In this document: positions 26,231 through 59,824 of the stretch, one piece after another | Numbering within the stretch: position 1 is the first letter of the stretch | Layout of the letters: every line of letters begins with the position of its first letter | Assembly (NCBI GenBank): GCA_014379905.1 | Contig: JACMKX010000165.1 | Span: 1 to 64,000, forward strand | Direction of reading: 5' to 3' | From: Ferruginibacter sp. | Lineage (GTDB): Bacteria > Bacteroidota > Bacteroidia > Chitinophagales > Chitinophagaceae | Length of the DNA: 64,000 nt | Made by a program: the position numbers and the translations under genes | Notes under the pieces: generated by a model | Seen by the model: the letters and a program-made list of their open reading frames with translations, nothing else | The model's database searches: none | Told to the model about the DNA's origin: nothing

Positions 26231-27511
26231 ATGAACATTCTTTTGATCGGTTCCGGCGGACGGGAACATACGCTTGCCTGGAAACTGAAGCAAAGCCCTC
26301 TTTGCGATGATCTCTTCATAGCACCGGGAAATGCAGGAACCGCAAATTTTGGAACCAACCTTAACATCAAAACCACGGAATTCGAAAAACTGGGCCAGGC
26401 ATGTAAAAGCAATAATATTGATATGTTGATCGTTGGTCCTGAGGAACCTCTGGTAAAAGGAATTTACGATCACTTTAAAAATGGCGAAGGTTTAAAACAT
26501 ATTAAAGTTATTGGCCCTTCGGCCGAAGCTGCACAACTGGAAGGAAGTAAAGCTTATGCCAAGGCATTTATGCACAGGCATAAAATACCTACCGCTGCCT
26601 ATAAAGAGTTTACCGCAGAGAATTATGAAGATGGCCTTGAATATATAAGGCAACATTCTCTGCCTGTTGTTTTAAAAGCAGATGGTTTGGCTGCCGGAAA
26701 AGGCGTGCTTATCTGCCAAAGCCAGCTGGAAGCTGTAGCGGAATTTGAACTGATGATTCATCGCAGCAAGTTTGGTGAAGCGGGTAGTAAAGTAGTGATA
26801 GAGGAGTTCCTGTACGGAATGGAAATGAGTTTTTTTGTATTAACTGATGGAAAAAACTATGTATTACTTCCTGAGGCCAAAGATTATAAAAGAGTTGGAG
26901 AAGGGGATATCGGCTTAAATACCGGCGGAATGGGGGCTGTAAGTCCGCTGCCATTTTTTGACGAAGAACTGAAACAAAAAGTAGTGGAGCGCATCGTGAT
27001 ACCAACAGTGGCAGGTTTGGATAAAGACGGTCTGGATTACAAAGGTTTTGTATTTATAGGATTAATGATCGATAAAGGCGAACCCATGGTAATTGAATAC
27101 AACTGTCGCATGGGCGACCCTGAAACAGAAGTAGTAATGCCCAGGCTTAAAAATGACCTCGTGGAATTATTGCAGGCTACCGCTGCTCAACAACTGAACA
27201 ATATTACTATAGAAGTGGATCCGCAATCGGTGGCAACCATTGTTGCCGTAAGTGGCGGCTATCCCGGCGACTATGAAAAGGGGTTACTGATCCATGGATT
27301 GGCGGATGCAGAAGCTACCGACAGTATTGTGTTTCATTCCGGTACCAGGAGGCAAGATGATAAGATACTAACAAATGGCGGCAGGGTACTGGCGGTTACT
27401 TCTTTTGGCAGCGACATCAAAAATGCGGTAGAGGCATCAAAAGAAACCCTGATGAATATCTACTTTGAAGGCATTAATTACCGCCATGATATAGGCTTTG
27501 AGTTTCCCTGA
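26231..27511 (+). CDS. purD: phosphoribosylamine--glycine ligase
   Basis: MNILLIGSGGREHTLAWKLKQSPLCDDLFIAPGNAGT; LKADGLAAGKGVLI; EYNCRMGDPETEVVMPRLKND. Confidence 0.97.
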   Translation: MNILLIGSGGREHTLAWKLKQSPLCDDLFIAPGNAGTANFGTNLNIKTTEFEKLGQACKSNNIDMLIVGPEEPLVKGIYDHFKNGEGLKHIKVIGPSAEAAQLEGSKAYAKAFMHRHKIPTAAYKEFTAENYEDGLEYIRQHSLPVVLKADGLAAGKGVLICQSQLEAVAEFELMIHRSKFGEAGSKVVIEEFLYGMEMSFFVLTDGKNYVLLPEAKDYKRVGEGDIGLNTGGMGAVSPLPFFDEELKQKVVERIVIPTVAGLDKDGLDYKGFVFIGLMIDKGEPMVIEYNCRMGDPETEVVMPRLKNDLVELLQATAAQQLNNITIEVDPQSVATIVAVSGGYPGDYEKGLLIHGLADAEATDSIVFHSGTRRQDDKILTNGGRVLAVTSFGSDIKNAVEASKETLMNIYFEGINYRHDIGFEFP

Positions 27512-27604
27512 TCTTTTAAACAACTAACTATAACGCATAAACGAAGTTTTAAATCCAATTTAAGGGCAGTCAACAGGAAGGACTAAATTTGTTAGCAATG
27601 AGCA

Positions 27605-27613
27605 TTATCCACA
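27605..27613 (+). promoter_or_regulatory. perfect consensus DnaA box TTATCCACA
   Basis: Exact 9-mer, part of 13-bp direct repeat attatccacaagc. Confidence 0.5.
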
Positions 27614-27618
27614 AGCGC

Positions 27619-27665
27619 TGAGAGAAGAGATGACATCTTTTCAAAAGATGTCATCTCTTCTCTCA
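27619..27665. repeat. 47-bp near-perfect palindrome, 23-bp arms and 1-nt centre
   Basis: tgagagaagagatgacatctttt-c-aaaagatgtcatctcttctctca. Confidence 0.95.
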
Positions 27666-27671
27666 CGTGGA

Positions 27672-27680
27672 TTATCCACA
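27672..27680 (+). promoter_or_regulatory. perfect consensus DnaA box TTATCCACA, second copy
   Basis: Exact 9-mer, second copy of attatccacaagc, same orientation. Confidence 0.5.
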
Positions 27681-27802
27681 AGCACACATGTATTGTTAAT
27701 AAAGGTTATTAGTTTTGAAAATAAAAAGTTTGCCGTTGTTAAATCCAATATTTTCCTTCAACTTTGCTCCCATCACGCTCAAATACATTTCACACACTAA
27801 AA

Positions 27803-28828
27803 ATGGGAATTTTTAATTTTTTTACACAGGAAATCGCAATAGACCTGGGAACTGCCAATACCCTCATTATTCATAACGGCGAGGTAGTTGTGAATGAACC
27901 CTCCATTGTTGCACTCGACAGAAATAATCCAAAGAATTTGCTGGCCGTGGGCAAAAAAGCATTGATGATGCATGAGAAAACCCACGAAAGCATCCGAACC
28001 GTTCGACCATTGAGAGATGGCGTTATCGCTGACTTTAACGCGGCGGAGTTAATGATACGTGAACTGATTAAACAAGTGTATACTAAAAAACCCTTATTCG
28101 CTCCAAGTTGGCGCATGATGGTTTGCATACCCAGCAGCATTACCGAGGTAGAAAAGCGGGCCGTTCGGGATAGCTGCGAACAGGCAGGAGCCAAGGAAGT
28201 CTATTTAATTCATGAGCCTATGGCTGCAGCACTCGGTATTGGTATCGATGTGGAAGAGCCGGTAGGAAATATGATCATTGATATTGGTGGTGGTACAACA
28301 GGTATTACTGTTATTGCCCTGGCAGGTATCGTTTGCGATCAGAGCATTCGTATAGCCGGGGATGAATTTACTGCCGACATTATGGAAGCGCTTCGCCGTT
28401 ATCATAGTTTATTGATAGGGGAGCGTACTGCCGAACAAATAAAAATACAGGTTGGGGCTGCTATGAAAGAACTTGACAACCCTCCTGATGATATTCCTGT
28501 AAACGGCCGTGACCTGGTAACGGGTATTCCAAAACAGGTAATGGTGAGTTACCAGGAAATTGCAGAGGCTTTGGACAAAAGTATTTTCAAAATTGAAGAA
28601 GCTATTTTAAAAGCCCTGGAAACAACACCGCCGGAACTGGCAGCAGATATTTACCGTCGTGGTTTATACATTACCGGTGGCGGTGCCTTGCTGAGAGGCC
28701 TGGATAAAAGACTGGCAGCAAAGATCAAATTACCAGTACACGTGGCTGATGATCCGCTGAAGAGTGTTGTAAGAGGAACGGGTATTGCTTTAAAGAACTA
28801 CGATCGTTTCCCTTTTGTAATGAGATAA
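27803..28828 (+). CDS. mreB: rod shape-determining protein MreB
   Basis: MGIFNFFTQEIAIDLGTANTLIIHNGEVVVNEPSIVAL; IDIGGGTTGITVIALAGIV; ITGGGALLRGLDKRL. Confidence 0.97.
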   Translation: MGIFNFFTQEIAIDLGTANTLIIHNGEVVVNEPSIVALDRNNPKNLLAVGKKALMMHEKTHESIRTVRPLRDGVIADFNAAELMIRELIKQVYTKKPLFAPSWRMMVCIPSSITEVEKRAVRDSCEQAGAKEVYLIHEPMAAALGIGIDVEEPVGNMIIDIGGGTTGITVIALAGIVCDQSIRIAGDEFTADIMEALRRYHSLLIGERTAEQIKIQVGAAMKELDNPPDDIPVNGRDLVTGIPKQVMVSYQEIAEALDKSIFKIEEAILKALETTPPELAADIYRRGLYITGGGALLRGLDKRLAAKIKLPVHVADDPLKSVVRGTGIALKNYDRFPFVMR

Positions 28829-30343: not shown

Positions 30344-30392
30344 TGCTTTACGGTCGACCACCTGAGGCGACAAGGTGGTCGACCGTAAAGCA
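30344..30392. repeat. inverted repeat, 20-bp perfect arms and 9-nt loop
   Basis: tgctttacggtcgaccacct-gaggcgaca-aggtggtcgaccgtaaagca. Confidence 0.95.
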
Positions 30393-59716: not shown

Positions 59717-59764
59717 GCAAAGAAGAGGTGACATCTTTCCCAAAAGATGTCACCTCTTCTTTGC
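59717..59764. repeat. inverted repeat, 22-bp perfect arms and 4-nt loop
   Basis: gcaaagaagaggtgacatcttt-ccca-aaagatgtcacctcttctttgc; shares core with 27619-27665. Confidence 0.95.
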
Positions 59765-59780
59765 AGTTGCGTTCTTTTTT

Positions 59781-59818
59781 CAACAGTTGACACCTTTTTG
59801 AAAAGATGTCATGTGTTG
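59781..59818. repeat. imperfect inverted repeat with the same tgacatcttt core
   Basis: caacagttgacacctttt...aaaagatgtcatgtgttg. Confidence 0.85.
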
Positions 59819-59824
59819 AAAAAA

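Follow-up and report, generated by a model that had tools for sequence, protein, structure and literature searches.

The purD–mreB intergenic region

In the window, by which we mean the whole 64,000-nucleotide stretch of Ferruginibacter DNA analysed here, purD ends at 27511 and mreB starts at 27803, and the space between the two genes holds a perfect palindrome flanked by two copies of a 13-mer; among named organisms, Ferruginibacter and other Chitinophagaceae come nearest. The original prediction had described identical 13-mers, each with a DnaA-type 9-mer, on either side of a palindrome with 23-bp arms, and coordinates and arms were all reproduced. The features, including two further copies of the palindrome family in the window, are as follows:

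27582..27596: palindromic operator-like site RCTAA-N5-TTAGY (ACTAAATTTGTTAGC)
27604..27616, + strand: left copy of the 13-mer ATTATCCACAAGC, containing TTATCCACA
27607..27612, + strand: imperfect locus-specific outer arm ATCCAC, which pairs in the DNA fold with its inverted partner GTGGAT at 27667-27672
27619..27665: perfect palindrome with central C at 27642 and 23-bp arms (27619-27641 and 27643-27665), 100% complementary
27619..27624: left locus-specific outer arm TGAGAG, pairing with CTCTCA at 27660-27665
27625..27659: family core AAGAGATGACATCTTTT-C-AAAAGATGTCATCTCTT within the palindrome, with about 30 dispersed copies in the genome
27671..27683, + strand: right copy of the 13-mer ATTATCCACAAGC
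27736..27766, + strand: conserved mreB promoter-like element TTG-N20-CAACTTTG
27803..28828, + strand: mreB, the gene downstream of the palindrome (Pfam MreB_Mbl)
59717..59764: second copy of the palindrome family, core GGTGACATC...GATGTCACC
59775..59824: third copy of the family, decayed

Folded as RNA, the palindrome upstream of mreB gives a hairpin of -41 kcal/mol (z -8.6); the T-run of an intrinsic terminator is absent 3' of it, with CGTGGATT there instead, and T-rich flanks are present at some other copies of the family. As the palindrome is situated upstream of the conserved promoter, it is probably outside the main mreB transcript.

The two perfect consensus boxes, in the same orientation and 67 bp apart, had been considered notable, and a DnaA-responsive control or titration site, or a minor origin feature, coupling the mre genes to replication had been put forward to explain them. 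The number of boxes is unremarkable, with 0.61 occurrences of TTATCCACA expected per 64-kb window and two or more found in 13 of 100 shuffles; what goes beyond chance at this site is the direct repeat of the 13-mer and the palindrome, and to that extent the observation stands. Across the 5.1-Mb genome the box occurs 38 times, against 37 for the reversed control, and is thus not enriched. Of the mreB loci from 80 relatives, 78 were scanned over 350 bp (L115 was covered over 100 bp and L140 over 22 bp), and a perfect box upstream of mreB was absent from 77 of the 78 scanned at full length. The one exception, L067 (UBA2793), carries its box at -136 from mreB, inside a different hairpin. Neither conservation of boxes at the locus nor enrichment over chance, which would mark a DnaA box cluster, was found, and among the papers searched none dealt with mreB and DnaA boxes in Bacteroidetes.

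An origin feature fares no better: dnaA lies on a different contig from the window, with two one-mismatch boxes and no perfect box in the 9.5 kb around it, and the GC skew over the window is weak and wandering: it climbs gradually from about -0.04 at 12 kb to +0.05 at 36 kb and makes no abrupt switch where the 13-mers and palindrome lie. Enrichment of DnaA boxes near other copies of the palindrome was also considered, but a box beside the copy at C150 is the sole further example, too few to use. The perfect pair itself, the box of L067 and that at C150 speak for a DnaA site; they are set against the even genome-wide count, the lack of a perfect box near dnaA and the near-complete absence from relatives, and the pair is accounted for by the 13-bp direct repeat. 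A DnaA function for these boxes is not supported and we regard it as very improbable; their repetition is probably a side effect of the arrival of the palindrome rather than a replication switch, and for the mreB locus the tempting link of DnaA to cell-shape genes is removed.

A dispersed palindrome family and the spacing upstream of mreB

A BLAST search of the intergenic region against its own genome matched about 30 other places, in each case through the palindrome alone, and the copies, collected by BLAST and pattern searches, have a 35-bp core in common, AAGAGATGACATCTTTT-N-AAAAGATGTCATCTCTT. Exact GATGACATCTTT was found 41 times in the genome and not once as the reversed control. By simple ORF calls, 13 copies lie between convergent genes, 15 between codirectional genes and two between divergent genes, and stop codons adjoin most of them; the second copy in the window, with GGTGACATC and GATGTCACC, is a compensated variant of the core. 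The exact double core was found between zero and two times in each of 98 relatives, the family having expanded in one species; a few copies are present in the sister genomes G132, G118, G040, G036, G105, G053 and G029, and viral contigs contained no exact double core. Contigs C98 and C122 both break at what appears to be one and the same copy of the palindrome (L058:2068-2088; L041:3379-3427). Matches to Rfam comprised sub-threshold microRNA and other hairpin hits only, which were dismissed as hairpin artefacts.

As in REP and REPIN sequences, the repeat is short, palindromic and extragenic, with about 30 copies that are intergenic or at the 3' ends of genes, and its half AAGAGATGACATCTTTT is itself near-palindromic and paired with its own inverse to give one hairpin. 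No GTAG/CGTC foot is present at the core ends of the copies examined, and for this reason membership of the classical REPs is not claimed. The mreB-site palindrome does share its architecture with palindromes on the flanks of genes for REP-associated tyrosine transposases in this genome, and the best reading of it is therefore a REPIN/TIR-like element.

The neighbourhood of mreB suggests that this copy was inserted in this lineage. RCTAA-N5-TTAGY is found at a similar distance from mreB in 29 of 78 Chitinophagaceae loci, whilst a looser form of the pattern gave two matches in the 436 kb that make up the remaining parts of the relatives' loci, and it is likely to be an operator of the mre operon. 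The promoter-like element, as TTG-N18..22-YAnnTTTG within 90 bp of mreB, occurs in 68 of 79 relatives versus 0.2% of background windows. Operator and promoter are 139 bp apart in the window as opposed to 44-93 bp (median 79) in the relatives, and in G035, the best blastn match, the operator is 35 nt from the shared AATAAAGGTTATT instead of 101, a difference of 66 nt which is close to the 67-bp period of the repeat. From these spacings we infer a lineage-specific net insertion of about 67 bp between the operator and the mreB promoter, which, if it has any effect, probably acts by widening the gap between these two elements.

An inserted palindrome bounded by a 13-bp target duplication had been one of the suggestions, and whilst the insertion is largely upheld by the dispersed repeat and the longer spacing, the target duplication is not. 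No other copy of the family is flanked by a direct repeat of more than 7 nt, which makes the 13-mer peculiar to the mreB site and rules it out as the target-site duplication of the family. Among the relatives we found no empty site carrying precisely one 13-mer: the box is missing from G035, and the single box of L067 lies at an equivalent distance but within its different hairpin. The relatives are only about 82% identical, and the pre-insertion sequence is therefore not directly readable from them.

Locus-specific outer arms

Beyond the shared core, 16 of 22 copies in the genome continue with at least five complementary bases (5-12 bp) that are particular to each locus. The mean over the copies is 5.7 bases, compared with 0.55 when left and right flanks of different copies are paired, of which 1.3% reach five. 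The arms are flush with the core, leave no loop bases over and form perfect stems, whereas the copies of sister genomes end at the core (mean 0.12). Flush outer arms were also found in four of seven copies of a second family, ACCTATAAGG. After mreD, at 30344-30392 of the window, there is a perfect palindrome with 20-bp arms and the core GGTCGACCACCT, a member of yet another dispersed family, other copies of which, with different outer arms, lie at G000:C33 (L259:2427) and near dnaA (L264:4379).

The origin of the arms was followed at a single locus, aroC (C21:15324), where the last codons for chorismate synthase (Pfam) lie in the left arm, CTTTTATTGCAA. This arm corresponds to the conserved C-terminus ADLLLL..QK, for which relatives read ADLLLLEQK or similar, and the inverted right arm is absent from them; the arm outside the gene is thus most likely host sequence copied in inverted orientation, and this points to hairpin-primed template switching. 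The aroC product ends QKR*, in which KR* is encoded by the inserted element (L213:4813-4871), and ORFs at L041 and L214 also appear to end in an element-encoded KR*.

It could be argued that terminator hairpins were there first, that the cores entered at their apex and that the outer arms are old terminator stems, which would suit the position of the copies behind genes, in many cases convergent ones, as well as the perfect stems. However, the arms meet the core flush, one aroC arm is conserved coding sequence, a separate terminator-like hairpin, AGAGCCATCAgtaaaTGATGGCTCT, is intact downstream of the aroC copy, and sister species carry the core without outer arms; we consider this origin unlikely. 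As far as the literature was searched, outer arms of this kind are undescribed.

Transposase relatives, proposed origin and known systems

In the sister genome G118, an array of CTTCCGAAGTTTT-N-AAAACTTCGGAAG palindromes surrounds a relative of the REP-associated tyrosine transposases (RAYTs). When this relative was used as query, three RAYT relatives were found in the Ferruginibacter genome. All three have an H-x-H and a tyrosine motif in frame, and their matches to NCBIfam REP_Tyr_transpos are weak but consistent, lying below the curated cut-off in every case. One of them (G000:C194:128770-129327) has a palindrome on each side with the core ACCTATAAGGTTTT-N-AAAACCTTATAGGT and locus-specific outer arms, and the genome has about six further copies of this core at scattered places; another (G000:C33:31476-32060) is flanked by palindromes of a different family. 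Palindromes of the GGTGGGCCACC type flank a RAYT relative and also occur elsewhere (L250:1281-1324 and 2149-2215; L047:1787-1835), and the third relative, close to the end of its contig, has GGACCGCAGGTCAGACCCGTA repeats on its flanks (L246:1409-1441 and 2048-2111). No RAYT flanked by GATGACATC, the core of the mreB-site family, was found, so the cognate transposase would appear to be missing or unrecognised, and the family is accordingly likened to RAYT-type repeats by architecture only. The Y1_Tnp genes (PF01797) of the Ferruginibacter genome were rejected as partners, the matched loci having no core copies, and two such genes on contig C21, about 2.7 kb from palindrome copies, were taken as chance.

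The palindromes might instead be selected, non-mobile elements such as intrinsic terminators, protein-binding sites or uptake sequences. Their location after stop codons, the strength of the hairpin and the compensated variants, e.g., GGTGACATC/GATGTCACC, are what such elements would lead one to expect, but the expansion in one species, the copy upstream of mreB that has no T-run and the RAYT genes flanked by palindromes of matching architecture make this, too, an unlikely explanation.

We consider it probable that a RAYT-type palindromic repeat was inserted upstream of mreB, gained its arms by template switching and duplicated a DnaA box by accident. The palindrome would be a dispersed repeat such as accompanies REP-associated tyrosine (HUH/Y1) transposases in Bacteroidota, and presumably mobilised by one: an inverted doublet, resembling a REPIN or TIR repeat, a copy of which would have come to lie between operator and promoter upstream of mreB and added a net length of about 67 bp. 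The outer arms would most simply arise if the newly made strand folded at the hairpin, used its own flank as template for a short distance and then went back to the original template. At mreB the return point may have been 13 nt too far upstream, which would leave the partial inverted pair ATCCAC/GTGGAT and the direct repeat of ATTATCCACAAGC; TTATCCACA would have been duplicated with it, making the pair an accident and not a DnaA control site.

The way in which REP-like repeats are copied is an unsettled question, and the flush inverted copies of host flank, variable in length, preserve a trace of that step which can be read and could separate hairpin synthesis driven by a transposase from later template switching during replication. 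A bolder proposal, offered tentatively and rather unlikely to hold, is that these RAYT-type repeats of Bacteroidota spread by hairpin-primed copying, in which one half is joined to the target whilst the second half and a little of the host flank are made by self-templated extension; the inverted duplication of host flank would then be the signature of a single-strand transposition step new for REP-like elements.

The mreB-site repeat is a new variant of the RAYT-type palindromic repeats with informative outer arms. With REPs and REPINs and their RAYTs it shares short palindromic extragenic repeats in tens of copies, arranged as paired inverted units and mostly downstream of genes (PMC3116915, PMC3733652), REPs having been reported mostly at gene ends, as here (PMC3733652). 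Such repeats sometimes supply stop codons (PMC3116915, PMC3733652), and here the TGA in AAGAGATGA ends aroC and other ORFs. The family differs from them in lacking a GTAG/CGTC foot, in having its inverted halves almost directly adjacent and in its complementary outer arms specific to each locus. Within the same phylum, the TnpAREP proteins of subclass 2.6 are reported to have ‘atypical secondary structures’ on their flanks, of which further copies occur at other places in the genome (PMC6006769), a description that resembles the HUH proteins flanked by unusual hairpins seen here; the ACCTATAAGG family has hairpins that flank an HUH gene and copies elsewhere, whereas none of the transposases found is flanked by the GATGACATC core. 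TIRtrons, or TIRYT, are likewise moderately abundant families in which RAYT relatives are flanked by terminal repeats, some of them self-complementary, although the section devoted to them (PMC3733652, section 16) does not describe a locus-specific flush extension. Template switching is known to make reverse-complement copies (PMC8794818), and by analogy may have produced the outer arms, which resemble quasipalindrome template-switch mutations in being reverse-complement copies next to a hairpin (PMC8794818, PMC7202029). Unlike those mutations, however, the copies described here recur at members of repeat families dispersed within one genome.
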